38,800 nucleotides of DNA from a virus, in the IMG/VR virus record IMGVR_UViG_3300025141_016326, positions 1-38,800 of that record, one strand, 5' to 3'. Both the position numbers and the translations under genes were made by a program. Positions 7,723-38,800 of the stretch are shown one piece after another; positions within the stretch are counted from its first letter, which is position 1, and each line of letters opens with the position of its first letter. The notes beneath the pieces are model-generated. The model worked only from the letters and a program-made list of their open reading frames with translations, was not told the DNA's origin and did no database searches.

Positions 7723-8783
7723 AATATCTTATAACAGGCGGTGCAGGATTTGTTGGAGGAAACTTAGCAATTAAGCTTGCTTCAGATGGAAATAAAGTTT
7801 TATGTATTGATAATTTATCAAGAAGAGGAAGTGAGAATAACCTTAGAAGATTTTTAAATCATAAAAATATAACCTTTAAGCATTGTGACATTAGAAATAG
7901 AGAGGATTTATATGATATAAAGTTTAATCCGGATGTCGTGCTAGAGTGCTCTGCACAGACGACTGCTGTTGACGGATACCAAAATCCTCTTTATGATTTT
8001 ACAAATAATACAATAGGTGTTGTTAATATTCTTGAATTCTGTAGAGAGAGAGGATCTGGAATTATATTCTGGAGTTCTAATAAGGCATACTCTGGAGGGT
8101 TTTGTAATTCTATACCTATGATTGAGAATGATACCAGATTTAAGTGGGATGAGTCTAAAGCCCAGCCTGTTCGAGGGTGGACTTCACTTGGCTTTAATGA
8201 AGAGGGTGATTTAAATGGTGGTGGTCATACAATATACGGTGTCACTAAAAATGCTGCTGACCTTTTAATACAAGAATGGTCTGTGGCTTTTGACATACCT
8301 GCTGTCATAAATAGATTTAGCTGTCTTTACGGTCCTCACCAGTTTGGAAAAGTCTCTCAGGGCTGGATGGTCTGGTTTGCGCTGGCTAAAAAGTTTAACT
8401 TAGATTTATATTATTACGGATTTAACGGAAAGCAGGTTAGAGACTGTCTTCACATTGATGATCTTTATGATCTAGTGTCTAAGCAGTCAACAAATCTATC
8501 TAGACATTATGGAGACTATTATAACGTCGGAGGTGGAGTAAAAAATACTACCTCTATATTAGAGTTTAATACATTCTTAGACAATACGATGTCTGGAAAT
8601 CACAAAGAAGTAAAACTATCAGAATCTAGAAACTCTGATCAAAAGATATACATTTCTGATATTAGCAAGGTCTCTGGAGATTTTAATTGGTCTCCGAAGA
8701 TTTCAATAAGGGAAGGAATGAAGACAGTAGTAGACTGGATTGAAGATAGTAATGAAGATTTTTCTTGGATGACAAGAGGTTAG
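7719..8783 (+). CDS. CDP-paratose 2-epimerase-like enzyme (RfbE type)
   Basis: A 354-residue extended SDR protein. G7-G-A-G-F-V-G13 is the NAD loop, D31 ends the second strand and Y173-G-V-T-K177 is an intact catalytic motif. The segments NRFSCLYGPHQFGKVSQGW (198-216) and GFNGKQVRDCLHIDDL (234-249) are hallmarks of CDP-paratose/CDP-tyvelose 2-epimerases, which invert C2 of a CDP-3,6-dideoxyhexose. It is a diverged relative of the gene at 3848-4894 and keeps the catalytic tyrosine that one lacks. It starts in an ATGA overlap with the upstream glycosyltransferase. Genes for making the CDP-dideoxyhexose substrate are absent, so the real substrate may be a different nucleotide sugar or one provided by the host. 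Confidence 0.82.
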   Translation: MKYLITGGAGFVGGNLAIKLASDGNKVLCIDNLSRRGSENNLRRFLNHKNITFKHCDIRNREDLYDIKFNPDVVLECSAQTTAVDGYQNPLYDFTNNTIGVVNILEFCRERGSGIIFWSSNKAYSGGFCNSIPMIENDTRFKWDESKAQPVRGWTSLGFNEEGDLNGGGHTIYGVTKNAADLLIQEWSVAFDIPAVINRFSCLYGPHQFGKVSQGWMVWFALAKKFNLDLYYYGFNGKQVRDCLHIDDLYDLVSKQSTNLSRHYGDYYNVGGGVKNTTSILEFNTFLDNTMSGNHKEVKLSESRNSDQKIYISDISKVSGDFNWSPKISIREGMKTVVDWIEDSNEDFSWMTRG

Positions 8784-8785
8784 AA

Positions 8786-10414
8786 ATGAAAATATTAGGT
8801 GCGTGGTCTGGACATGACTGTTCTTATTCTGTTATTGATGAGGGGAAACCCGTTGTTCATGATGAATATGAGAGATTTATAAGAGAAAAAGAGCCTGCAG
8901 GAGATTCATTGGGATTTTTTCTTGAAAATTATCCTGATATGCTAGAAGAAATATCACATGTTGCAACTTGCTTTCCTAGCTCTAAGCTGTCTCATTATGA
9001 TGAATCATATAAGAAGGTGATGTCTTCTGTAGAGTCAAGAGGTGGAAATATATTTACAATAGGCCACCATAAGTCACATGCTGCAAACGCTTTCTTCTCA
9101 AGTAATCTAGAAGATGCTACAATTTTAACTTTCGACGGAGGCGGTGTTGAAGAAGACAATGTTGTTACAGCATGCACAATATGGCTTGGAAAGGGAAATA
9201 AGATAGCTCATGTTCATACATTTCCAATGTCTTTTGTTAATATTGGAGGTGTCTGGACCCGGGCTACTAGATATATTTTTCAGCTTCAGTCGGGATGGCC
9301 AAGAGGCCATCAGGCCGGAAGTGTCATGGCAATGGCATCCATAGGAGATCCAGCAAGGTTTCATAATGATTTTTTAAAAATGTTAACTTCAGACATTGCA
9401 ATTGCATCTCATAAGCCAGCTGGTCAGCCTAGAGGGGCTCTAATTCCTGGAAAAGATCCAGTACATCCCTATCTTAACAAGTGGAAGCTCATAGCTGACA
9501 AGGGAGAAAGCGAAAGGTTTGATCTTGCAGCAGGTCTTCAGTCAGCCACAGAGACAGTTATGCGAAGCATCATTGGACAGCTAATTGGTCAAATTCCAAC
9601 TAAGAATCTGTGCTTTTCCGGAGGTGTTTCTCTCAACTGTGTTGCAATTGGGAAGATAAGGTCTTGGTTTCCTAGTATAGAAAATGTCTATGTTACACCA
9701 ACACCTCACGATGGCGGACTTCCCATAGGTGCTTCTCAATATGTCTGGCACCAGATATTAGATAAGCCTAGAATTAACTGGAAAGATAACTTTACACCCT
9801 ATCTAGGTAGAAGCTACAACATTGAAGAAATAGAGGCATCGTTAAAAAATAGATCTGATAAAGTTGAATATAAAAATTCAAATATCTCTAGCCTAATCGG
9901 GCTACTAGATGATCAAAAGATAGTTTCTGTTTTTGGAGGAGGCTCTGAGTCCGGACGTCGAGCACTTGGTAATAGGAGTATTTTAGCTGACCCTAGAAGC
10001 CCGAATATGAAAAAAATGATAAATGAAAAAGTTAAGCACAGACAGTGGTATAGACCCTTTGCTCCTTCTATTCTTAGAGAAGAGGTCGCTAACTGGTTTG
10101 AAATTGATCAAAGTAGTCCGTATATGAGTTTTGCAATTCCCTTAAAGGAAGATTCATTAGAAAAGGTGCCGGCTGTAGCACATCTAGATGGAACAGCTAG
10201 ATTGCAAACTGTCTCTAAGAACGATAATAAGTGGTACTACAACCTTCTTTCTAGATGGAATAAGAAAACAGGGGTGCCAATTTTACTAAATACTAGCTTT
10301 AATGACAGAGAGCCTATTTGTGAAAATCCTGACCATGCTATTGATTGTTTTTTAAGAACTAACATAGACTATCTTTACTTTTCTGATTTTGACCTCTTGG
10401 TATCAAAGAAATGA
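8786..10414 (+). CDS. Carbamoyltransferase (NodU/CmcH family)
   Basis: This 542-residue enzyme transfers a carbamoyl group from carbamoyl phosphate, through a carbamoyl-adenylate, onto a hydroxyl of a small molecule or sugar. The N-terminal ASKHA-fold kinase-like domain starts with WSGHDCSY (H10, D11), carries GHHKSHAANAF (93-103) with the metal-binding histidines, and has TFDGGG (115-120). The C-terminal domain contains ESGRRALGNRSI (388-399) and QWYRPFAPSI, both diagnostic of the family. Length is in the usual range. An in-frame TTG at 8765 exists, but the ATG at 8786 has an AGAGG ribosome site about seven bases upstream and begins directly at the conserved domain. The acceptor here is probably a sugar made by this island. 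Confidence 0.9.
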   Translation: MKILGAWSGHDCSYSVIDEGKPVVHDEYERFIREKEPAGDSLGFFLENYPDMLEEISHVATCFPSSKLSHYDESYKKVMSSVESRGGNIFTIGHHKSHAANAFFSSNLEDATILTFDGGGVEEDNVVTACTIWLGKGNKIAHVHTFPMSFVNIGGVWTRATRYIFQLQSGWPRGHQAGSVMAMASIGDPARFHNDFLKMLTSDIAIASHKPAGQPRGALIPGKDPVHPYLNKWKLIADKGESERFDLAAGLQSATETVMRSIIGQLIGQIPTKNLCFSGGVSLNCVAIGKIRSWFPSIENVYVTPTPHDGGLPIGASQYVWHQILDKPRINWKDNFTPYLGRSYNIEEIEASLKNRSDKVEYKNSNISSLIGLLDDQKIVSVFGGGSESGRRALGNRSILADPRSPNMKKMINEKVKHRQWYRPFAPSILREEVANWFEIDQSSPYMSFAIPLKEDSLEKVPAVAHLDGTARLQTVSKNDNKWYYNLLSRWNKKTGVPILLNTSFNDREPICENPDHAIDCFLRTNIDYLYFSDFDLLVSKK

Positions 10415-10740
10415 AGATTAAAAAGCCCTGGGGATATGAAATTATCTGGGCTAAGACAGACAGCTATGTAGGAAAGATCTTGCACATAAGAGCAGGCCAT
10501 AGACTTTCTAAGCAATATCACCAGACTAAAGAAGAGTCAGTATATGTTATTGAGGGTGTTTTGCACAACTATGATAAAGATGACAATCTTATAAAAATTG
10601 ATATGGGAAAGTCTTTTCACGTTAATCCAAATCAGATTCATAGGTTTGGTGCAGGTGAGTCATCAGTTACAATTGTAGAAGTAAGCACATCTCATTTAGA
10701 CGATGTTGTTAGAATTGAAGATGACTATGGCAGGAATTAA
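10411..10740 (+). CDS. Cupin, mannose-6-phosphate isomerase type II-like
   Basis: A 109-residue single-domain cupin. It starts with KPWGYE and contains KILHIRAGHRLSKQYHQTKE, then VNPNQIHRF and finally VVRIEDDYGR. This order matches the type II phosphomannose isomerase domain, which elsewhere is often fused to GDP-mannose pyrophosphorylase. Metal ligands would come from the QYHQTKE segment and the late QIHRF histidine. It may isomerise a sugar phosphate, or be a small sugar-binding or isomerising cupin acting on another intermediate. It overlaps the carbamoyltransferase stop in an ATGA, and a TTG-initiated glycosyltransferase follows two bases after its stop. No GDP-mannose pyrophosphorylase is in the window. 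Confidence 0.75.
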   Translation: MKIKKPWGYEIIWAKTDSYVGKILHIRAGHRLSKQYHQTKEESVYVIEGVLHNYDKDDNLIKIDMGKSFHVNPNQIHRFGAGESSVTIVEVSTSHLDDVVRIEDDYGRN

Positions 10741-10742
10741 TA

Positions 10743-11654
10743 TTGAAAATATACATTAACAGAAAGCCAAAATCTGGACCTTGGGGCGGAGGAAATAAAA
10801 CTGTTTGTATACTTTCTAAAATGCTTAAGAGCAGATCACATGAAGTGGTTTATAATCTAGAAGATGATGTTGATATTATATTTTGCATGGATCCGAGACC
10901 TGATGAATCAGGCGTATGGTATGGAGACTTTTTAGAGCATAAGAATAAATTTGGATCAAAAATTATCCAAAGAGTTGGAGATATTGGAACACATAGTAAG
11001 CCTGATCTTACTCAGCTAGTAGCTCAAACATTTCAGTTTTCTGATTTTTTTATCTTTCCAAGTGATTGGGCAAGAAGGGCCATAGGGTTCTCCGGTTCAA
11101 ATTATGCCATAGTTAAAAATCAATCTAGGAAGATATTTCATAAATTTAAGAAAGATCTAAAGCTAGCCGGTGATGAAAAAATGAAAATAGTAACACACCA
11201 CTGGTCAACTAACCCTAAAAAAGGCTTTGATTTTTATGAATATTTATCTAAAAAATCAATTGAAAAAAATATTCATGTTACCTTTATAGGAAGAGTCCCG
11301 GAAAGATTTAATACTTCTTTAATTAATTACATAGAGCCTCAAGGTGATGAATCTCTATCTAGACTTCTTCCTCAAAATCATGTCTATTTAACAGCATCTA
11401 TTGAAGAGGCAGGAGCAAATCATGTGGTTGAGGCTCTTGCATCTGGCTTACCAGTAATATATCATGATCAAGGTGGAAGCATTCCAGAATATGTTTCTGA
11501 ATACGGATTGTCATTTAGTAATTTTGAAACTCTGCTAGGCGCTGTTGAAAATATGAGAAATAGATTCAATATATTCAAATCAAGAGCTATGGGATATAAT
11601 ATGTGTCAAGAAGATGCTATAGATTCATATGGAATGATAATAGAAAATGTATAG
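10743..11654 (+). CDS. GT4-like glycosyltransferase (TTG start)
   Basis: The 303-residue protein has a GT-B architecture. The N-terminal SGPWGGGNK segment is a glycine-rich loop at the place where GT4 enzymes bind the acceptor or the donor phosphate. The C-terminal half has KIVTHHWSTNPKKGFD (linker and start of domain 2), FIGRVP, and ASIEEAGANHVVEALASGLP (about 218-237), an E-x7-E-type donor-binding motif, followed by HDQGGSIPE. There is no ATG near the conserved beginning; the frame starts at a TTG at 10743 with a purine-rich stretch (AGGAATTAA) ahead, so TTG is the likely start. It overlaps the next gene by eight bases. Specificity is unknown. Confidence 0.7.
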   Translation: MKIYINRKPKSGPWGGGNKTVCILSKMLKSRSHEVVYNLEDDVDIIFCMDPRPDESGVWYGDFLEHKNKFGSKIIQRVGDIGTHSKPDLTQLVAQTFQFSDFFIFPSDWARRAIGFSGSNYAIVKNQSRKIFHKFKKDLKLAGDEKMKIVTHHWSTNPKKGFDFYEYLSKKSIEKNIHVTFIGRVPERFNTSLINYIEPQGDESLSRLLPQNHVYLTASIEEAGANHVVEALASGLPVIYHDQGGSIPEYVSEYGLSFSNFETLLGAVENMRNRFNIFKSRAMGYNMCQEDAIDSYGMIIENV

Positions 11655-12372
11655 GATTAACATAAGCATAGATGATGTCTCTCCGCATCCCAGATCGTCT
11701 CTGGGGATCATTGAGCAGTGTAATAGGATAATTACCTTATTCCCACTAGCCAAGTTCACCCTGTTTGTTCCTGCCTCATATTGGAGAACTATGAAACCTG
11801 AAGTGTCTACTAAGTTCCCGCTTCAGCTTCATATGTTTTCTGAATTTTGTCAAGCTCTAAGATCACTTCCAAAAGAAAATTTTGAAGTGGGATATCATGG
11901 ATTTTATCATGGAATTCCCGGAAAGACAGACAATGATGAGATGAGAAATCTAACTTATGATCAATGCTGTAAGATGCTAGATGCTATTTTTGATGTTATT
12001 AAGAAGGCTGACTTAGAAGATACTTTTTCTCCAATTCTTCGACCACCAGCATGGAGAATGTCCCACGAATCATTCGATGCCTGTCGTGACAAAGGGATAG
12101 AGGTTCTTGCACTTTCACCTGACACCTATGGTGATGGATCGCTAGACTATGGTAAAAAGGCAGAAGAGTTTAAAAACGTTGTCTACTACAACGTCTGTCC
12201 CCCCCAGAAAGAACTTAAGCTATTTTCAAAAACCGAGATTGTCTATCACGCTTGCGACTGGGATAAGAATTATCTTAGCAAGGAAATGACAGATAGTCTT
12301 ATCGGCTTTTTACAGAAAAATAAAGAAGATATTAAATTTTGTTTCATGAGAGAGATGATTGATGAAAGATAG
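11647..12372 (+). CDS. Polysaccharide deacetylase-like protein (NodB/CE4 fold)
   Basis: This 241-residue protein resembles the NodB-type carbohydrate esterase fold. An early strand ends in SIDDVSP with D9-D10, the place of the catalytic and metal-binding aspartates. EVGYHGFYHG (80-89) supplies H84 and H88, matching the metal-binding H-x3-H motif. LRPPAWR (131-137) matches the conserved RxPxW/Y segment. A late strand contains VYHACDW, with a histidine at the position of the usual catalytic His. Members remove N- or O-acetyl groups from sugars. There is no signal peptide, so the substrate would be an intracellular glycan or precursor. It overlaps both neighbours by about ten bases. Confidence 0.65.
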   Translation: MYRINISIDDVSPHPRSSLGIIEQCNRIITLFPLAKFTLFVPASYWRTMKPEVSTKFPLQLHMFSEFCQALRSLPKENFEVGYHGFYHGIPGKTDNDEMRNLTYDQCCKMLDAIFDVIKKADLEDTFSPILRPPAWRMSHESFDACRDKGIEVLALSPDTYGDGSLDYGKKAEEFKNVVYYNVCPPQKELKLFSKTEIVYHACDWDKNYLSKEMTDSLIGFLQKNKEDIKFCFMREMIDER

Positions 12373-15254: not shown

Positions 15255-16271
15255 ATGTCAAAAAAATCAATTCTTATAACTGGCGGTACTGGGACTTTTG
15301 GAAAGGCCTTTGTAAACTTCTGTCTTGAATCAAATGTTTATGAAAAAATTGTTATCTTTAGTAGAGATGAATACAAGCAGCATAATCTAAAGGGATATCT
15401 TCACAATAAAATAGGTGTCAAACAGACTAATAAGAGATTTAGATTTTTTCTTGGAGATATTAGAGATAGAGAAAGACTTGCGGTTGCCTTTAAAGGTGTC
15501 GACTATGTTATTCATGCTGCTGCTTTAAAGCATGTTCCTTTCTGTGAATATAACCCAGGTGAAGCCATAAAGACCAATGTTAATGGAACAAAAAATGTCT
15601 GCGATATTGCAATTCAGGAAGAGGTTGAAAAGGTTGTAGTTCTTTCAACAGATAAGGCAGTTGAGCCTATTAACTTTTATGGTTCGACAAAAATGCTTGC
15701 AGAAAAGTATTCTATTTTTAGTAATTCTTATAGCAAGAATGATGAAGATTCAAATAAAAAGACTAAAATTTCTTGTGTAAGATATGGAAATGTTATAGGC
15801 TCTAGAGGTAGCATAGTGGAAATATTTAATAGCATGGTTTCAAAGTCTCACTTTAAGATAACAGATGACAAGATGACAAGATTCTGGATGGACATCAGGG
15901 ACTGTGTTGAAATGGTTCAATGGTCAATTGATAACATGGTCGGCGGAGAAATTGTTGTCCCTAAGATTAAAGCATCTAGAGTAGTAGACATAGCAAAGTG
16001 TGTTGACCCACGAAAGCCTATTGAGATTATTGGAATTAGGCCTGGAGAGAAGATACACGAACAGCTTTTAAACAGAAGAGAAAGCGAGAGAGCATTTGGT
16101 GTAGGCAAGTATTTTATAATCACACCTGAAAGCTCTGAGTGGATGAATATAAACGATTACTATTCTACACACTTTAAACCAATAGACAGAGAGAGGTATT
16201 TTTCAGATGATGAAGATATTCAAATGGAAATTACAGAAATTAAAGAGATTATTGAAGCCCATTCATCCTGA
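15255..16271 (+). CDS. pseB: UDP-GlcNAc 4,6-dehydratase (inverting), PseB/FlaA1-like
   Basis: A 338-residue SDR enzyme of the PseB/CapD type, which converts UDP-GlcNAc to a 4-keto-6-deoxy sugar, the first step to pseudaminic acid and to several amino-dideoxy sugars. GGTGTFGKAF (10-19) is the NADP loop. FSRDEYKQ and LGDIRDRERL are family signatures, and AAALKHVPFCEYNP (88-101) is diagnostic. The catalytic residues are D133-K134 and Y142/K146, matching the D-K...Y-x3-K arrangement described for PseB. DKMTRFWM lies in the substrate-binding region. A GAGGGAATTA ribosome site precedes the ATG after a 19-base gap. The 3' end overlaps the radical SAM gene by about 65 bases. The family call is very firm; the precise pathway is inferred. 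Confidence 0.88.
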   Translation: MSKKSILITGGTGTFGKAFVNFCLESNVYEKIVIFSRDEYKQHNLKGYLHNKIGVKQTNKRFRFFLGDIRDRERLAVAFKGVDYVIHAAALKHVPFCEYNPGEAIKTNVNGTKNVCDIAIQEEVEKVVVLSTDKAVEPINFYGSTKMLAEKYSIFSNSYSKNDEDSNKKTKISCVRYGNVIGSRGSIVEIFNSMVSKSHFKITDDKMTRFWMDIRDCVEMVQWSIDNMVGGEIVVPKIKASRVVDIAKCVDPRKPIEIIGIRPGEKIHEQLLNRRESERAFGVGKYFIITPESSEWMNINDYYSTHFKPIDRERYFSDDEDIQMEITEIKEIIEAHSS

Positions 16272-17325
16272 AAAAGAAAGTCACGAAGAGCGATCTTCTG
16301 ATGTTTTTCACTGTTTTGAAGATATAAAGAATGATAATTGGAGAAAATGGGAATCTCAGCACTCTGAAGAGTATAAAAAATATAGAAAAGAGTGGGTTAA
16401 ATATCCAAGAGAGCTTAAGGTAGCTGACAGTCCGCTTCACTTAGATATTGAGGTTTCAAGTCATTGTAATCTAAAGTGTCCATTTTGCTCAAGAACACAG
16501 AGAATAGAAAAAGGGACATGGAGAAAGCCTGGAAATATTGATTTCGAACTTTATAAGAAGATCATAGATGATATGTCAAAAAATGGTGTCTATGCTTTAA
16601 ACTTAAATGTTATAGGGGAGCCACTTCTCCATAAGAAGCTCGGAGAGATGGTCGCTTATGCCAAGTCAAAGGGAATTATTGATATATTCTTTCACACAAA
16701 CGGTGTCCTATTAAATGAGAAAAGATCAAGAGACCTAATCTCTTCAGGTCTTGATAAGCTTATTATATCATTTGACTCTCCTTATAAGGAAAAATATGAA
16801 AAAGTTAGAACGGGCGCTAAGTATGAACAGGTCCTTGAAAACGTAAAGAGGTTTAAAGATATCCGAGAGGAGATGGGTTCTATTACGCCTGTCACAAGAA
16901 TAAACTTTATAAAGCTTCCGGGTGTAACAGAGAAAGAGATAAGGGATATGGTAGATCTTTTTTCTCCCATAGTTGACTCAATAGGTCTTCTTGATTACAT
17001 TGAGTCTGACAATAGCATCAGACAGACTGGAAGATTTAAAAAAGGGTATAAGTCTAATTTTGTCTGCTCTCAGCTCCTTACTAGGCTGACAGTTTATGAT
17101 GATGGAAGAGTTTTTCCGTGCTGCAGTGATTATGATGATGAGCTACCTCTAGGTGATATAAACAATCAGACATTACAAGAAATATGGAATTCTGATGAGC
17201 TTAATCATATTAGAAAAAAGCATTTTGAAGGTAAGTTTTATGAGCTTTCAGCTTGCGCTAAGTGTGATTATGCACTACAGGCAGATGGTGAGTTTAAAGA
17301 TAGAAAGACTGCTGATGAGTATTGA
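16207..17325 (+). CDS. Radical SAM/SPASM domain protein
   Basis: This 372-residue protein has the radical SAM cluster motif C87-x3-C91-x2-C94 in SSHCNLKCPFCSRTQ. It also has NVIGEPLLH (134-142), HTNGVLL (163-169) and SFDSPYKE, the expected strands of the partial TIM barrel. A SPASM-type C-terminal auxiliary cluster domain is shown by C287, C305, C306, C350 and C353, with the hallmark GRVFPCC and LGDINNQTLQEIWNS. Relatives act in peptide modification and in sugar or antibiotic biosynthesis by radical oxidation or dehydrogenation. The gene begins inside the last 65 bases of pseB (ATG-ATG at 16207/16210). A TTG at 16252 is an alternative start, and the first 70 residues are basic and variable. 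The substrate is unknown. Confidence 0.85.
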   Translation: MMKIFKWKLQKLKRLLKPIHPEKESHEERSSDVFHCFEDIKNDNWRKWESQHSEEYKKYRKEWVKYPRELKVADSPLHLDIEVSSHCNLKCPFCSRTQRIEKGTWRKPGNIDFELYKKIIDDMSKNGVYALNLNVIGEPLLHKKLGEMVAYAKSKGIIDIFFHTNGVLLNEKRSRDLISSGLDKLIISFDSPYKEKYEKVRTGAKYEQVLENVKRFKDIREEMGSITPVTRINFIKLPGVTEKEIRDMVDLFSPIVDSIGLLDYIESDNSIRQTGRFKKGYKSNFVCSQLLTRLTVYDDGRVFPCCSDYDDELPLGDINNQTLQEIWNSDELNHIRKKHFEGKFYELSACAKCDYALQADGEFKDRKTADEY

Positions 17326-31040: not shown

Positions 31041-31433
31041 ATGGCATTAGATAAAGAGGCTCTTATATCTAGCATCCAGGCAGCCTTTGATGCTGCTAGT
31101 GAAATTAATGTAGAACAATATACAGATGAGGATACTGGAGAAATTGATACAGAAGAATTCTCTAATGCAGTAAAGACGAAGATGGCGGAGGAATTAGCAG
31201 GTGCTATCTCCAGCTTTGTTGAAGGTGCAGAGATTGAATTTGATGAAGCAAGCATAGATGGGGCAAGCTGGACAGGAAATCTTGTAGTTTCTTCAAACAA
31301 GCTTGAATCTGATAGTGGGTCTAATTATCTTGTTACCTATGACCCGGGAACAGTTTCAATGTCAGATGTTGCCTGGTTTGATGAGCCTACAATATCTGGA
31401 AATGTAACTATTTCTGGTGGGAAGTTGAAATAG
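31041..31433 (+). CDS. Small acidic beta-rich protein between hub and gp25, unknown
   Basis: The 130-residue protein is strongly acidic. The first half is helical (DKEALISSIQAAFDAASEIN) and contains a DEDTGEIDTEEF stretch; the second half is beta-rich, ending with SGNVTISGGKLK. There is no signal peptide, cysteine or membrane segment. It starts one base after the hub gene stop and is followed by a 51-base gap, so it is probably expressed with the hub. A structural or chaperone role in baseplate assembly is a guess from position. It does not look like a PAAR spike tip, which is glycine- and proline-rich with conserved histidines. Confidence 0.6.
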   Translation: MALDKEALISSIQAAFDAASEINVEQYTDEDTGEIDTEEFSNAVKTKMAEELAGAISSFVEGAEIEFDEASIDGASWTGNLVVSSNKLESDSGSNYLVTYDPGTVSMSDVAWFDEPTISGNVTISGGKLK

Positions 31434-31484: not shown

Positions 31485-31979
31485 ATGGCTGCAGATGAAG
31501 TGTATGACTTCAATTCAGTTGGTGTTCAGACCAACGATCCACGATTCTCTCGTGTGGCTGATTCAAAGCCCATAGGGATAAAAACACCCTTGGGCTTAGA
31601 TTCATCAAGAGGGGGTCCGTTTAGGATGCATTTCAATGTATACGATCAGATTAAGGATAATCTTAAAAATCTGATTTTAACAAATAGTGGAGACCGGCTT
31701 GGGCGACAATCGTTTGGAGGAAATCTGCTAGAGCTCTGCACTGAGTTTACATCTAAAGAGTCTTTTGACTCTGAGGCTATGATAAGAATAAAGACTGCTG
31801 TTGCAAAAAGCATGCCGTATGTTGAGCTTTCAACATTTGAGTCTGAAGTTAAATCACTGCCTAGAGATCCTGCAAAGCCTGATGGTATGGCGCTGGTCTC
31901 TGTTAAGATTTCCTACTCAATTCCCAGGCTAAGATCTTCAAATAATGCTTTGGAATTTATACTTTATATAATGGGTTAA
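31485..31979 (+). CDS. 25: Baseplate wedge protein gp25-like
   Basis: A 164-residue protein of the GPW/gp25 family, the sheath-initiating wedge component also related to TssE of type VI secretion. The diagnostic segment is NLILTNSGDRLGRQSFGGNLLEL (62-84), equivalent to the gp25 NLLLTxxGERxxxPxFGxxL motif. TAVAKSMPYVEL follows at the place where many members have an EPR motif; here only the glutamate is retained. T4 gp25 is 132 residues, and the extra length is a 45-residue N-terminal extension. A strong GAAGGAAG ribosome site precedes the ATG. The gp6-like gene follows one base after the stop, the conserved gp25-gp6 order. Confidence 0.85.
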   Translation: MAADEVYDFNSVGVQTNDPRFSRVADSKPIGIKTPLGLDSSRGGPFRMHFNVYDQIKDNLKNLILTNSGDRLGRQSFGGNLLELCTEFTSKESFDSEAMIRIKTAVAKSMPYVELSTFESEVKSLPRDPAKPDGMALVSVKISYSIPRLRSSNNALEFILYIMG

Positions 31980-31980
31980 G

Positions 31981-33840
31981 ATGTCTAGAAGAATTCAAAA
32001 AGATATTAAAAAGAAAAAAGTAAGAAGCTATTTAAATAAAGATTTTGAATCTTTTAAATCAGACTTACTTCTATACGCAAACACTTATTTCTCCGATCAG
32101 ATATCAGACTTTTCTGATGCATCAGTGGGATCTTTGTTTCTTGAAATGGCTGCTTACGTCGGGGATGTTATGTCCTTTTACTTAGACCACCAGTTTAATG
32201 AATTAGATATTTTAACTGCTGTTGAAAGCAAGAACATTGAAAGGCTTGTTCGATCTTCCGGTGTTAAGATCAAGGGTGCTTCCCCGTCTTTTGTAGATGT
32301 TGATTTTTACATCGAGGTGCCAGCTGAGCAGGTTTCAATCAATGGTGTCATAACATCTTTGCCAAAAAATAGTGTTTTGCCCATAATAAAGAAAGGAACA
32401 ACAGTTAGTTCAAAATCAGGAATTGTATTTGAACTAACAGAGGATATTGATTTTTCTTTAAAGGATGAAAACGATAGCTATGTAGCTACATACATCGCAT
32501 CGGAAACTAATACTGAAGGTGAAGTTACAAGTCTAGTGGGAAAGGCATCAGGACAGTGCACCTCAGGTCGAACAGCTACAGAAAGTTTTTCCATACCAGA
32601 TAGATTTGAACCCTTTAGAAAGATTACGCTTTCTTCTCAGAATGTTTCTGACGTAATTGTTGTAAGAGACTCTGAGGGAAATGACTATTACGAAGTTGAT
32701 TCTCTTACTCAGGACACAGTATTTAGTAAGGTTGCCAATTTTGGCTCTGATTCAATTGAGGTTACGGATAGCATACAGCTTATTCCTGCACCCTACCGAT
32801 TTATAATCAAGTCAAGTAGAAAAACAGGCCTAACAACAATAGGATTTGGATCTGGAAGAGCTGACAGCTTAGATAATGATATTATACCGGATCCAAGCGA
32901 AGTTGCCTTACCGATGTACGGGGATAAAAAGACATTTTCAAGAGTTGCAATTGACCCAAACGCTCTCTTAGGAACGAGAACTTTGGGAGTCTCTCCTTAT
33001 AATACAAATATCACAGTTAGATATAGAGCTGGAGGAGGCATTAGCCACAATGTAGGATCTGGTCAGATAGCTTCTATTTCAAGTCTTTCCACTGAATTTG
33101 GATCAGGTGTGGCTTCTGTTACAGCAGCTAGAATAAGGGCTTCAGTTCAGATTAATAATACCAGCCCAGCAGCTGGAGGTGAAGATCCCCTGACTGAGAG
33201 CGAATTAAGAACAACAGCACTGGCATTTAGAAATTCTCAGTCAAGAATAGTTACTCGAGATGACTTGATTGCTAGAGTTTATTCTATGCCTTCTAATTTT
33301 GGCAGAGCTTTTAGGGTAGGTGTTAGATCTAATCCAAACAATCCATTGGCTTCTATGATCTCAGTTATAAGTAGAAATTCAAGCGGTTACTTGACTCTTT
33401 CACCAGATGCTCTAAAAGAAAATATAAAGATCTATATTAATCAATTTAGACTTATTTCGGATGCTATTGATATAGTTGATGCACAAATTATAAATATTGC
33501 TATTAATTATTCGATTATTACTGATGCAACTTCTAATAAAAACCTAGTCTTGCAAAGAGTCAATTCATCTATAAAGAGCTATTTAAAAATTGAAAATTTT
33601 CAAATCGATCAACCGATAGTAGTTTCAGATTTAACTAATCTTATTCTTAATACAGAGGGTGTTGTTTCTTTAGTAGATTTGAATATAGAAAATAGAACGG
33701 GAATAGTTGATGAGAGAGAGTACGCAGAAGCTACATTTGATGTTATTTCAAATCTAAGAAATAATATTTTATTTCCAGTTGAGGGAGCGATTTTTGAGCT
33801 TAAATTTCCCCAAGATGACATAGCCGGCAGTACTGTTTAG
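31981..33840 (+). CDS. 6: Baseplate wedge protein gp6-like (baseplate J)
   Basis: This 619-residue protein corresponds to the gp6/baseplate J wedge subunit, which dimerises to form the inner baseplate ring. The N-terminal part has FSDQISDFSDASVGSLFLEM, AYVGDVMSFYLDHQFNELDI and RLVRSSGVKIKGASPS, all characteristic of gp6-like proteins. The C-terminal half has LRTTALAFRNSQSRIVTRDDLIARV, the baseplate J signature of a helix followed by the VTxxDxxxxx element, and then repeating alpha/beta units. T4 gp6 is about 660 residues, so size agrees. It follows gp25 by one base and is eight bases from the next gene, which supports one late transcription unit. Confidence 0.88.
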   Translation: MSRRIQKDIKKKKVRSYLNKDFESFKSDLLLYANTYFSDQISDFSDASVGSLFLEMAAYVGDVMSFYLDHQFNELDILTAVESKNIERLVRSSGVKIKGASPSFVDVDFYIEVPAEQVSINGVITSLPKNSVLPIIKKGTTVSSKSGIVFELTEDIDFSLKDENDSYVATYIASETNTEGEVTSLVGKASGQCTSGRTATESFSIPDRFEPFRKITLSSQNVSDVIVVRDSEGNDYYEVDSLTQDTVFSKVANFGSDSIEVTDSIQLIPAPYRFIIKSSRKTGLTTIGFGSGRADSLDNDIIPDPSEVALPMYGDKKTFSRVAIDPNALLGTRTLGVSPYNTNITVRYRAGGGISHNVGSGQIASISSLSTEFGSGVASVTAARIRASVQINNTSPAAGGEDPLTESELRTTALAFRNSQSRIVTRDDLIARVYSMPSNFGRAFRVGVRSNPNNPLASMISVISRNSSGYLTLSPDALKENIKIYINQFRLISDAIDIVDAQIINIAINYSIITDATSNKNLVLQRVNSSIKSYLKIENFQIDQPIVVSDLTNLILNTEGVVSLVDLNIENRTGIVDEREYAEATFDVISNLRNNILFPVEGAIFELKFPQDDIAGSTV

Positions 33841-33848
33841 AGGAAATT

Positions 33849-35387
33849 ATGTATAGAATTCTCACTTGTAGTTCAGATACCTACATTACTAATAAAATTA
33901 TTAACAATAAATTTAGAGCTGAAGACGCCAATGTCGGGCAGGCAGGAACTATTGACATCTTTAAGCTTTATAATGAAAACTCTAGTGGATCAATTACAGG
34001 AACCATTGAGGTGTCTCGTGGTCTGTTAAAGTTTGATCTAAACCCGCTCAGACAGCTTACAGGTTCTTCTTTAGATATAAATCACTCATCTTTTAAATGT
34101 ATGTTAAAGATGTATGATGTTTACGGCGGTCAGACTACACCTTCAAGCTTTAAACTAATAGTCTTCCCGCTTTCTAAGTCTTTTGATGAAGGGATTGGCA
34201 GGGATATTGTTAATTTTTCTGATCTTGATTCTTCTAATTTTATAACAGCTTCAGTTATTGATGACACAGTGACACTTTGGGAGCATACAGGAGCAGCAAA
34301 AGAAGGACTTCTAGGATCAAATGATCTTGATATTATATCTAGCGGAAACCTCTCTGATGGAAGCGGTGTTGCAAACATCTGGAAATCACAGACATTTTCA
34401 AAAGGGAGTGAAGATCTTTCAATCAACATAACAACTATGATATCTGCTACACTCGCCAGCCAGATACCTGATTGTGGGCTTAGAGTCTCTTTCTCAGGTA
34501 CACAAGAGACAGATGATAGAACAAGGTTTGTTAAGAGGTTTGCTTCCAAAAACTCTACTAGATTTTCAAAAAGACCTAAGATAGTTGTAACCTATGATGA
34601 CTCAGTTCAAGATCATCACACAGTCTTCTTTTTTGATGTGACTGGGTCTTTGTTTTTAAATAACTTTCATAGAGGAAATCCTACTAACATACTCTCTGGA
34701 ACAAGAAGAAGAGGAATATCTGGTTCTAACTGCATGGTTCTTAAGATATTTTCTGGAGTCAACGGTTCTGGATCTTACTTTGCTAAGCAGTTATCAGCAT
34801 CTCAGCATCAGGTAGGTATTAACTTTATAACAGGTGTCTATTCAGCAACATTTGCAATTTCAGAATTTGAGAGCTCAAGTTTAAGAGAAGAGATTAAAAG
34901 TGCCGGCTCAGCCACATTTACTACTGTCTGGTCTTCTGTTGATGATACAGTTGGATACTATACAGGATCACTTGTTGTTAATACAGTTAAAAGGACATCA
35001 TTTGAAAACTCTCCGAGAAGGCTCTTTGTCAATGTAACAAATTTAAAATCAACATATGTTTCTTCAGAAAAGACCAGGTTTAGAGTTTTTGTTCAAGATG
35101 TTGGAAAGAAGATTGTTGCTACTAAGATTCCTATCGAGACTGTAAGTGAAATATTTACAGATATGCACTATAGAATCAGGGACTTTGAAACAGATGATGT
35201 TATTGTTCCTTTTGACACTGAGTCAAAAGGAACGCTTCTCTCTACAGACTCTAAGGGCATGTATTTTGATTTCTATATGGATTCCCTAGCCCCTGGTAGG
35301 ACTTATATTTTTGACTTTTTAATAAAAGATGAGGGAACAGATCTAGTATTTTCAAATGTCGCAGCTAAATTTGATATCATTAGATAG
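33849..35387 (+). CDS. Virion protein with N-terminal DNRLRE-like beta domain
   Basis: The 512-residue protein is predicted mostly beta. The N-terminal 260 residues show the DNRLRE-like layout found in secreted carbohydrate-binding and lyase proteins: an early DTYI element, EVSRGLLKFDLNPL, a KLIVFPL strand and a closing RPKIVVTYDD strand. The remainder, starting HHTVFFFDVTGSLFLNNF, is a further set of beta repeats with SGTRRRGISGSNC and NVTNLKSTYVSSEKTRFRVF. It lies between gp6 and the gp7-like gene, so it is very likely a baseplate component or attached fibre protein. It is not similar to T4 gp8 in length or motifs as far as I can see. Confidence 0.65.
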   Translation: MYRILTCSSDTYITNKIINNKFRAEDANVGQAGTIDIFKLYNENSSGSITGTIEVSRGLLKFDLNPLRQLTGSSLDINHSSFKCMLKMYDVYGGQTTPSSFKLIVFPLSKSFDEGIGRDIVNFSDLDSSNFITASVIDDTVTLWEHTGAAKEGLLGSNDLDIISSGNLSDGSGVANIWKSQTFSKGSEDLSINITTMISATLASQIPDCGLRVSFSGTQETDDRTRFVKRFASKNSTRFSKRPKIVVTYDDSVQDHHTVFFFDVTGSLFLNNFHRGNPTNILSGTRRRGISGSNCMVLKIFSGVNGSGSYFAKQLSASQHQVGINFITGVYSATFAISEFESSSLREEIKSAGSATFTTVWSSVDDTVGYYTGSLVVNTVKRTSFENSPRRLFVNVTNLKSTYVSSEKTRFRVFVQDVGKKIVATKIPIETVSEIFTDMHYRIRDFETDDVIVPFDTESKGTLLSTDSKGMYFDFYMDSLAPGRTYIFDFLIKDEGTDLVFSNVAAKFDIIR

Positions 35388-35396
35388 GTAATTAGA

Positions 35397-38300
35397 ATGA
35401 AGAAGAAAAGAGTATTAAATCTTAGACAGCCTCATTTATTTAAGCCGTCTACAGTTAGAAGGACTACCAAGCCCGGCGCTACATTTAATAAAGATGTAAA
35501 GCTTAGCACTTTATCAGATACCAATATTGAAAGTACTTCTTCTTTTAGATATGATCAGCCTGGATCTGGATTAAAGTCTACTCAAGAAATTTCAATTGAC
35601 TATAGTAAGTTTGAAAAACATACTTTTTTTAATTCTGCAGTTTCAAAGGTAAATATTGCTTTTGATAGAATTGTTAACGAATTTCCTTTTGATGGGACAG
35701 AGAGAGAAATTGAGGCTTTTATTGATTCTTTGACAGGATATGAAAAGCATATTTTTGATAGCTTTCCTAAGAATATTGGATATCTTGTATTTTCAGGAAC
35801 TGTGTCAGGTGAAGCCTATCACGAAGGGACTTATCTTAAGGTAAATGACAAGGCAGGAACAAGTTATCCTGAATTTTCTAAAAATAAAACTGGAAACAGC
35901 GTTATAAATCCTGGTTTAAGCTCTTTTTCTATTGAGATGCAAATATTTCCTCCTGCAATTGTTAACGACAATCAGGTTATCTGTCAAATGCTTAGCGGAA
36001 CAAATGGAAAATTTGGAAACGGAGGCTTCACCCTGGGATTGTCCAGCTCAGTCAGTACTAGCGAATCAACTTTGATATTTGCTGTTGTTTCTGGTACAAC
36101 ACAACTTCATGCTACTGGAACTATCAATAAGGGGCAGTGGAATCACGTATGTGCTACGTTTAATAGATCTCCTGGAGTTGGAGATTTGCTGCTCTACGCT
36201 AGCGGAAACCTAATAGCCTCATCTTCAGATTCTGCAGATGAAATGGGAACTCTTTCATTCAACTCTGTTATGCCCCTCTATATTGGATCTGGGTCAGCCC
36301 AGAGTCTCGTGCTACAGATGGAAGATCCGACTGATACAGAACAGTCACTTTGGACTCCGCAGCAGACATTTTCTGGATCAATTGATGAATTTAGATTTTT
36401 TCATAAAACAAGAAGCACTATTGATCAAAAAAATACTTCTCTAAAGGAAATATATCCGGATGATGAAGAATCTCTGCGTCTTTATTTTAAGTTTAATGAG
36501 CCGTCTGGTTCTTACAGTATTCCAGATGTAGCTCTTGATAGTTCGGGAAATTCTCTTCATACCAAAATTACAAACTTTGACTCTACAAATTCAAGATTAA
36601 CTGGATCAAATACAGACTGGGGGGTCTGTATGACAGCTGAGAAAAAATTCTTATCACCGATTTTATTTCCTTCTTTTGATAATGTAAGAGGTCTCAACGC
36701 AGACCTATTACATTCTGCTAGCTTGTTTGATAACCAAAATCCAAACATAATAACAAAATTAATACCTCCCCATTATCTCGAAATGGGATCTGAGGATCAG
36801 GGATTTAACTCTATGACTGGAAGCATGGGAGATATGATCAAATCTAATAGCGTCCCAGGGTCATCAGTTATAGGATCACCTCAGATTATGTCTGCATTTT
36901 TACTAATATGGGCAAAGTATTTTGATGAGATGAAGATCTTTATAGATCATTTTTCTAATTTAATTCATATTGACTATGATGATATAGACACAGCAGCAGA
37001 TAAATTTTTACCTTTTGTCGCTAGATATTATGGATTTGATCTTCCGGCAATATTTTCTAACACCAATCCAGAGCAGTTTATCAAAGGTGAAAATATTGAC
37101 GGCACATATTCTGTATCACCTGAATCTCTCAGTTACGTTCAAAATCAAATATGGAAGAGAATTCTAATAAACATTAGCGAGATAAGATCTGCTAAGGGAA
37201 CAAGACATTCAGTTGAAGCAGTCTTTAGAGCAGCTGGAATCGATCCAGATTCATTCTTTACAATTAGAGAGTACGGAGGTCCAACAAAGAGATCTCTGGT
37301 TGGTCTTAGGCAGTCTAGAAAGGAGGTTTCAACAGCTTTAAGCTTTACCGGAAGTCTAGCACCATGGCCAGATTCCACACTGGAAACAACTTCATCTGAT
37401 GGGCTTAACAGTTTAATGCCCATTATTAGATCACCATTTCTATCTGGATCTAGAGTTGAAGCTGGGTATCCTTTTGCAAGGGGTGGATTTAATAATGCAA
37501 AATATGTTGCAGGTGAAATAGTTACACATGGAACATCTACAGATGGCTCAGACGGTCTATTTACATCTGGGTGCTTTACATATGAAGGAACCTATGTGTT
37601 TCCAAGGCTTGTTACCGGGTCCTATCCTGTAAGCCAGAGTCTTATAAGATTTCAAGTAACTGGGTCTACAACACCTTCAGATAGAAATGGTGTTATAGCA
37701 AACCTTATAGTGGTTTCTGGTGCAAGCAACACACTGACCGGCAGTGGTTCAGATCTAAAGCTATTTGTCAGACCTTCATTTGCAACAACATCTGAAAAAT
37801 CACTTGAGATTGCCCTAACTGGGGTAAATATATTTAATGGAGATCATTGGTACGTCTCTTTTGGTAAGGTTAGGTCAGATTCACCTCATCTTGATATAAA
37901 TCCTGAAAATGCTGTCTCTTCATCATATTTTCTAAGGTGTGCTAGGCAGTCTTCTGGAGAAATTGTTGAAACACACCAGACATCTTCATTTTTTATGGAA
38001 ATTTCAAATAGAGGTGCAACTACTAACAAAAGTGTACTTTCATCAAAAGTTTCAACATATAATGCTAGCGGTGTATTTTTTGTAGTAGGTTCCCAGAGCT
38101 TTGGAGACCCTTCTGGAAATTATTTTTTAAATGATGAATCAATAACACCTGACGGAGCCGCGCGTGTAACAACTTTTGCCGGTCGATTGTCTCGGATAAG
38201 ATTCTGGAGTAAGGCACTTGAGTCGGGTGAGTGGAAAGAGCATGTAAGAAACTTTAAATCTCTTGGAGTTAAAAATCCTCTTGTTAATTTTAACTTTAAC

Positions 38301-38800
38301 ACTCTTTCATCCGGATCATTTGAGAGATTAAGAATTGATGCCACGACAGATCAGAGAGTTACAGCTTCAAATAGTCAAGGGGAGATAGAGATATTTGATT
38401 TTTCAAAAAATAGCACAATAAACTCAGAAGGTTCTGCTACACCGTGGATTGCAGCAGACCAGTCTGGTTCAGTTTCATATTATCATCTTTCAGGAACTGG
38501 ATTTGAAAAAAATAAGTCAATAATAAGACCTGAGACTTTTTATTACAGCTTTTTATCACCTAGATTTGATATTGGACAGACAGATAATAAGGTGAGAATA
38601 AGAAGCTTTAAAGATGCTGACAAGCTAAAGAATAGCAATTATGCTGGAAGTGCACCCGTGTATGAAGTCCCACCCTCTGACCAGCCTGATGATGATACTA
38701 GATTTAGTATCGATTATTCAGCTGTCAAAGCTCTAGATGAAGATATAATGAATATTTTTTCATCTCTTGAGTTTTTTGATGATGCTCTCGGTCAGCCAAA
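35397..38800 (+). CDS. Giant gp7-like baseplate wedge protein with two LamG-like domains (cut by window end)
   Basis: The frame is open from ATG 35397 to the window end (1134 complete codons, no stop). Three parts can be seen. Residues about 165-345 form a concanavalin/LamG-like domain: SFSIEMQIFPP, GQWNHVCATFN and SGSIDEFRFFHKT. Residues about 490-690 match the phage tail protein I/gp7 type, with WKRILINISEIRSAKGTRHS (K600-G-T) then VFRAAGIDPDSFFTIREYGG. Residues about 727-955 form a second LamG-like domain ending RLSRIRFWSKALESGEWKEH. T4 gp7 is about 1030 residues and joins the wedge. The gene starts nine bases after its neighbour. The end is missing, so total length is unknown. Confidence 0.75.
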   Translation, partial: MKKKRVLNLRQPHLFKPSTVRRTTKPGATFNKDVKLSTLSDTNIESTSSFRYDQPGSGLKSTQEISIDYSKFEKHTFFNSAVSKVNIAFDRIVNEFPFDGTEREIEAFIDSLTGYEKHIFDSFPKNIGYLVFSGTVSGEAYHEGTYLKVNDKAGTSYPEFSKNKTGNSVINPGLSSFSIEMQIFPPAIVNDNQVICQMLSGTNGKFGNGGFTLGLSSSVSTSESTLIFAVVSGTTQLHATGTINKGQWNHVCATFNRSPGVGDLLLYASGNLIASSSDSADEMGTLSFNSVMPLYIGSGSAQSLVLQMEDPTDTEQSLWTPQQTFSGSIDEFRFFHKTRSTIDQKNTSLKEIYPDDEESLRLYFKFNEPSGSYSIPDVALDSSGNSLHTKITNFDSTNSRLTGSNTDWGVCMTAEKKFLSPILFPSFDNVRGLNADLLHSASLFDNQNPNIITKLIPPHYLEMGSEDQGFNSMTGSMGDMIKSNSVPGSSVIGSPQIMSAFLLIWAKYFDEMKIFIDHFSNLIHIDYDDIDTAADKFLPFVARYYGFDLPAIFSNTNPEQFIKGENIDGTYSVSPESLSYVQNQIWKRILINISEIRSAKGTRHSVEAVFRAAGIDPDSFFTIREYGGPTKRSLVGLRQSRKEVSTALSFTGSLAPWPDSTLETTSSDGLNSLMPIIRSPFLSGSRVEAGYPFARGGFNNAKYVAGEIVTHGTSTDGSDGLFTSGCFTYEGTYVFPRLVTGSYPVSQSLIRFQVTGSTTPSDRNGVIANLIVVSGASNTLTGSGSDLKLFVRPSFATTSEKSLEIALTGVNIFNGDHWYVSFGKVRSDSPHLDINPENAVSSSYFLRCARQSSGEIVETHQTSSFFMEISNRGATTNKSVLSSKVSTYNASGVFFVVGSQSFGDPSGNYFLNDESITPDGAARVTTFAGRLSRIRFWSKALESGEWKEHVRNFKSLGVKNPLVNFNFNTLSSGSFERLRIDATTDQRVTASNSQGEIEIFDFSKNSTINSEGSATPWIAADQSGSVSYYHLSGTGFEKNKSIIRPETFYYSFLSPRFDIGQTDNKVRIRSFKDADKLKNSNYAGSAPVYEVPPSDQPDDDTRFSIDYSAVKALDEDIMNIFSSLEFFDDALGQP

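Follow-up and report, generated by a model that had tools for sequence, protein, structure and literature searches.

The closest described systems are the baseplate wedges built on a (gp6)2-gp7 module, in which the gp7 position is occupied by gp7 in T4, gp17 in XM1 and gpI in P2. T4 gp7 is composed of separate domains and shifts during baseplate rearrangement (PMC3004832), while the tail spikes of XM1 are held by segments of gp17, the counterpart of gp7 (PMC10457771). In addition, Gp119 of phage Vp4 is a baseplate wedge with CBM folds for which binding to host cells has been demonstrated; according to the authors of that work, CBM-containing proteins had previously been unreported in myophages (PMC11406892). 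The domains of Gp119 are regarded as modular, since they are absent from the homologue of a related phage. In a literature search combining LamG or laminin G with baseplate, which covered open-licence papers, no paper came up that describes LamG within a gp7-type wedge. The protein described here resembles T4 gp7, XM1 gp17 and P2 gpI in its position after gp6 and its wedge-type helical core, and it is, like Gp119, a wedge-type protein with carbohydrate-binding-type beta-sandwich domains. Vp4 Gp119, as a CBM-bearing wedge, is its closest precedent, with the difference that the Bacillus phage protein (Herelleviridae) possesses CBM16-like and xylanase-CBM-like domains with demonstrated cell binding, whereas the domains here are of LamG type and family-wide, with putative binding.

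The window, namely the whole stretch of DNA analysed, is a linear IMG/VR viral record of 38.8 kb and is probably a fragment of a longer genome. At its end, an ATG-started frame of 1134 codons (1134 aa) on the + strand, 35397-38798, runs stop-free up to the window edge, so that the open frame of at least 1134 codons claimed in an earlier note is upheld. This gene was annotated as a gp7-like baseplate wedge protein whose 3' end is cut by the window edge. Its nearest relative, in record L002, is 88% identical across all 1134 residues and is encoded by a complete gene (8001-11735, 1244 aa), which places about 110 C-terminal residues beyond the window. The best conserved stretch of the whole protein is an N-terminal helical segment (STQ...HTFFNSA..., residues 60-125, 35574..35771, + strand), of which a weakly matching counterpart is placed before the core in Microcystis phage Mel-JY01. 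At the other end, a conserved C-terminal region (residues 986-1134, 38352..38798, + strand) runs on past the window.

Upstream of the gp7-like gene and on the same strand lie a 512-aa protein, a gp6-like protein, a gp25-like protein, a 130-aa ORF, a 501-aa protein and a late-sigma-like protein. The gp6-like wedge protein (31981..33840), the expected partner of gp7, was matched by Baseplate_J at 23.1 bits, above the cut-off, and by phrog_219 at E=2.4e-16. The gp25-like wedge protein (31485..31979) gave weak Pfam/PHROG matches and was found in 101 relative loci. The order gp25-gp6-512aa-gp7 is kept in about 100 relative loci, one extra gene thus separating gp6 from gp7. That extra gene, encoding the 512-aa protein (33849..35387), has a counterpart in 104 relative loci, invariably between gp6 and gp7, and is 94% identical between the window and L002, exceeding the conservation of gp6. 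A Pfam scan of the 512-aa protein itself gave no match, and in the Mel-JY01 counterpart the N-terminal part matched CBM96 below the threshold; as a lead, the protein is possibly beta-rich and CBM96/DNRLRE-like.

A separate observation concerns the 130-aa ORF (window 31041-31433), situated between the 501-aa protein and gp25, which turned up at only 3 of about 107 relative loci and is the quickest-changing among the genes compared, its L002 counterpart being 47% identical with a dN/dS of 0.41.

The gp7-like character of the protein resides in a helical core (residues 428-664, 36678..37388, + strand). When the window protein itself was scanned with Pfam and PHROG, nothing but the first LamG domain, LamG1, was matched, and neither Tail_P2_I nor Gp7_helical was among the Pfam matches; accordingly, both the core and the second domain, LamG2, were recognised through relatives. 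When the cores of 52 relatives were scanned one by one, Tail_P2_I and Gp7_helical were the two commonest and the only recurring families, albeit as weak, sub-threshold matches (11 of 52, best E=0.0068, and 4 of 52, best E=0.014, respectively). By HHalign, DNQNPNIITKLIPPHYLEMGSEDQGFNSM (residues 445-473, 36729..36815) aligns with residues 642-670 of T4 gp7, inside its Gp7_helical domain (P=0.003). The earlier note had placed a gp7/tail-protein-I signature near residue 600; the tail-protein-I-type KGT motif KGTRHSVEAVFRAAGI is indeed located at residues 600-615 (37194..37241), and the profile similarity behind it is weak but recurs in relatives. The stretch bearing this motif, which is shared with P2 gpI, aligns with gpI residues 71-96 (P=0.034, the P2 gpI relatives retrieved being too alike for a useful profile) and with the protein annotated as gp7 in cyanophage S-CRM01 (P=0.0012). 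Moreover, the core is clearly common to the gp7-position proteins of Mel-JY01, Flavobacterium phage immuto and the uncultured phage LR756508.

Apart from the KGT motif of S-CRM01, comparison of the whole protein with T4 gp7 and with the Kyanoviridae gp7 of S-SSM7 and ACG-2014f yielded nothing significant, and a search of PDB sequences with the core profile gave nothing useful. T4 gp7 shares with the window protein the possession of large added domains as well as the matched Gp7_helical segment, but the additions here are LamG-like instead. Domains V and VI of T4 gp7 (Gp7_5th and Gp7_6th) were not detected in the 1134-aa window part even at E<=1, and both were found by Pfam in T4 gp7. The lack of a match to these domains, together with the weakness of the single Pfam matches to gp7 and tail protein I, would suit a receptor-binding or fibre protein in its own right, following gp6 by chance. 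Such a reading is extremely unlikely in view of the fixed position after gp6, the core similarity from three directions, the retention of the core as far as Mel-JY01, immuto and a 484-kb phage, and the slow evolution of the protein. On the basis of the core similarities and the position after gp6, the product is very probably a gp7-type wedge protein, rather than a close orthologue of T4 gp7.

LamG1 (residues 174-340, 35916..36416, + strand) matched the Pfam family Laminin_G_3 at 46.1 bits against a curated cut-off of 27.6 (E=7.5e-12), and the match was present in 19 of 20 relatives scanned, so that its assignment as a LamG/ConA-like domain is certain. LamG2 (about residues 720-982, 37554..38342, + strand) is a divergent LamG-like beta-sandwich, in which a Pfam scan of the window protein found no match. 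Among the corresponding regions of 69 relatives, Laminin_G_3 was the sole recurrent family, matched in 7 at E<=0.1 (best E=2.4e-4), and the LamG2 profile aligned with that of LamG1 across 188 columns (HHalign, P=2e-5), while no informative hit came from comparing the LamG2 profile with PDB sequences. The possibility that LamG2 is a chance reading was ruled out, as the profile and the structure model concur.

The protein was modelled at full length with AlphaFold2 from an alignment of 72 natural relatives (mean pLDDT 79.7, pTM 0.66), and the model predicts strands through residues 128-402 and 727-982, with residues 428-664 helical. The modelled sandwich of LamG1 extends over about residues 128-402, and residues 727-982 are predicted to be almost all strand, with confidence mostly 75-90 and the same order of elements as in LamG1. 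In both beta regions, the strand run closes with a G-x-x-(D/S)-x-(F/I)-R-F-(F/W) strand followed by a short helix, after which come a further strand and an F-N-(E/T)...SGS-type motif. Pfam for LamG1, together with profile comparison, relatives and AlphaFold2 for LamG2, thereby bears out the earlier claim of a LamG-like domain on each side of the motif, and the model returned a beta-sandwich for both regions, the point on which that claim had been staked. Foldseek against the PDB retrieved pentraxin, PAPP-A, LamG, laminin LG4-LG5 and similar folds; PTX3, PAPP-A, laminin LG4-LG5 and the Bacteroides protein 4dqa share the fold of the modules as otherwise unrelated proteins. A model of the core alone was poor (pLDDT 62), and the Foldseek search from it was empty. 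In BFVD, seven full-length models from uncultured marine viruses, including A0A1B1IV21, A0A516LBS1 and A0A0F7L9Z0, matched nearly the whole protein (query-normalised TM 0.56-0.67, 13-18% identity); they are uncharacterised and have no recorded function. The fold was also partly matched by a model of the ACG-2014f gp7.

A profile scan of IMG/VR gave 468 matching stretches in viral contigs, not all of them from distinct viruses. All 72 aligned relatives carry both domains, with LamG1 spanning 157-193 residues and LamG2 227-336 residues. A further LamG is present between the core and LamG2 in L018/L019 and in L021/L024/L025, the inserted copy in the record of L021 scoring 69.8 bits. In the gp7-like protein of Mel-JY01 (WWT39511.1), the homologous core is followed by a weak LamG-like stretch (HHalign, P=5e-4), whereas the syntenic protein of immuto (YP_010114574.1) has the homologous core without a LamG-like stretch detected on either side; no LamG was detected before the core in either protein, and a Pfam LamG match is absent from both. 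As the simplest reading, LamG2 would be the older domain, with LamG1 and the additional copies having joined later. Five further matches in a bacterial genome collection all fell on MAG contigs (Halobacteriovorax, Methylococcaceae and others), which are too unreliable to name a host.

Two side observations on related proteins may be recorded. A 5187-aa open frame of its own, with three Laminin_G_3 matches (L021, record G004, about 15545-17155), follows downstream of the three-LamG gp7. In cyanophages ACG-2014f (4225 aa, L219 3167-15844) and S-SSM7 (3007 aa, L220 3562-12585), the gp7 annotated as "baseplate wedge initiator" contains a YHYH domain and shows no Pfam LamG.

Mean pairwise identity among the 72 aligned proteins amounts to 36% in LamG1, 43% in LamG2 and 47% in the core, which makes LamG1 the least conserved among the folded parts. 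Near-invariant columns account for 9%, 15% and 19%, respectively, putting LamG2 close to the core. Between the window and L002, dN/dS was 0.058 in LamG1 and 0.095 in LamG2, the core giving 0.065 and gp6 0.073, and the medians across 18 close pairs were 0.093, 0.103 and 0.037 for LamG1, LamG2 and the core, all of these figures being rough because dS was saturated in many pairs. Purifying selection thus acts on LamG1 and LamG2 alike, with a constraint about two to three times looser than that on the core. Positive selection on either domain was considered and ruled out, with no pair near dN/dS=1, though dS was saturated in many of them.

The gp7-like protein is about as conserved as gp6 and gp25, the gp7/gp6 identities in close phage pairs being 87/84, 90/91, 81/90, 65/75 and 95/93%. 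In three pairs with gp7 identities of 87-90%, a large tail protein encoded two genes downstream (L002 12625-15375; L082 10396-13047; L073 10382-13282) showed only 58-62% identity or a partial alignment. Because gp7 tracks gp6 while this second downstream protein diverges, variability of the host-range kind lies downstream and outside gp7, and the variable tail protein would be a better candidate for host choice than the gp7-like protein. The earlier suggestion that the wedge places glycan recognition on the baseplate therefore holds in part: the gp7-type wedge, in terms of synteny and core similarity, and the two LamG beta-sandwiches stand, while purifying selection, gp6-like conservation and the downstream variability speak against a host-selecting role.

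The ConA-like fold is often purely structural in role, which weighs on the question of whether the LamG domains are working lectins that grip host surface polysaccharide and add a second, low-affinity hold to that of the fibres. Such a function, the chief alternative to the reading preferred below, is possible but doubtful: purifying selection acts throughout, with no dN/dS near 1, and LamG1 contains few conserved aromatic columns of the sugar-stacking kind, against which must be set the LamG/pentraxin fold itself, the faster change of LamG1 relative to the core and the insertion of extra LamG copies in relatives. In the pair L082/L088, for instance, LamG1 is 71% identical and the core 95%, and since LamG1 outpaces the core in some pairs, a peripheral binding role may remain for it. 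Lectin activity would also agree with the decoration of host cells by the CBM-bearing wedge Gp119 of Vp4 (PMC11406892).

The baseplate cluster is preceded by an island of glycan genes (window 320-28126), comprising epimerases, glycosyltransferases, NeuB, a carbamoyltransferase, an aminotransferase and UDP-glucose/GDP-mannose dehydrogenase domains. The nearby glycan-making island pointed out in the earlier note is thus confirmed, and it is conserved in relatives: as judged by coordinates, all 11 relatives with enough upstream sequence have glycan genes ahead of the baseplate cluster. In nine relatives compared (L227-L235), the last two glycosyltransferases, GT1d-GT1e, are constant and a PD-(D/E)XK nuclease-like gene is nearly so, and the remaining content of the island varies widely. 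In Mel-JY01 and immuto, glycan genes are few and non-adjacent.

As an observation on the record itself, the island genes of the window and L002 are 62-100% identical (several about 100%) and the baseplate genes 82-95%, a contrast in sequence identity that suggests recent recombination.

Another idea is that the LamG domains bind glycans made by the phage, for example as a latch on a putatively glycosylated part of the virion, or to avoid or recognise sugars placed on infected cells. Proximity of the island to the gp7-like gene would not by itself imply that the LamG domains bind its product. The upstream glycan genes in 11 of 11 informative relatives and the constancy of the GT1d-GT1e pair in nine would favour this idea, but the island varies beyond that pair and the nuclease-like gene while the LamG domains stay conserved, and the few, non-adjacent glycan genes of Mel-JY01 and immuto tell against it as well, so that it appears very unlikely. 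Because the content of the island varies while the gp7 architecture stays, a one-to-one match between lectin and island glycan is unsupported, and the evidence is mildly against it. It is likewise highly improbable that the LamG modules recognise the island glycan, with a phage-made sugar serving to latch or cue the assembly or triggering of the baseplate.

The reading preferred here, which is held with moderate confidence, is that the protein serves as the gp7-type wedge in a T4-related lineage of aquatic myoviruses and that its LamG modules act chiefly in structure or docking. By homology with T4 and XM1, the helical core (residues about 428-664) would pair with two gp6-like copies to form the core of the wedge, flanked by the two LamG/ConA-like beta-sandwiches. 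LamG2 would represent an old, conserved part, probably packing against or docking other baseplate proteins, while LamG1, together with the extra LamG of some relatives, would be a later insertion at the periphery of the wedge. The modules probably dock peripheral parts of the tail, in the position of the extra domains of T4 gp7 and of the XM1 gp17 segments, on whose spike-holding role this docking is modelled. Surface sugars might be contacted weakly and in a general way, though the data would be explained without such contact.

This analysis identifies a gp7-type wedge for a large group of uncultured aquatic myoviruses, in which LamG-type modules are a standing part and whose close homologues sit in databases as unnamed or hypothetical proteins. 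If the modules are purely structural, the family would caution against equating "LamG" in a tail protein with "receptor binding". If they bind sugars, the adsorption of such phages would rest on more than fibres, and the LamG-wedge family would extend the CBM idea developed for Vp4 to another group of phages.
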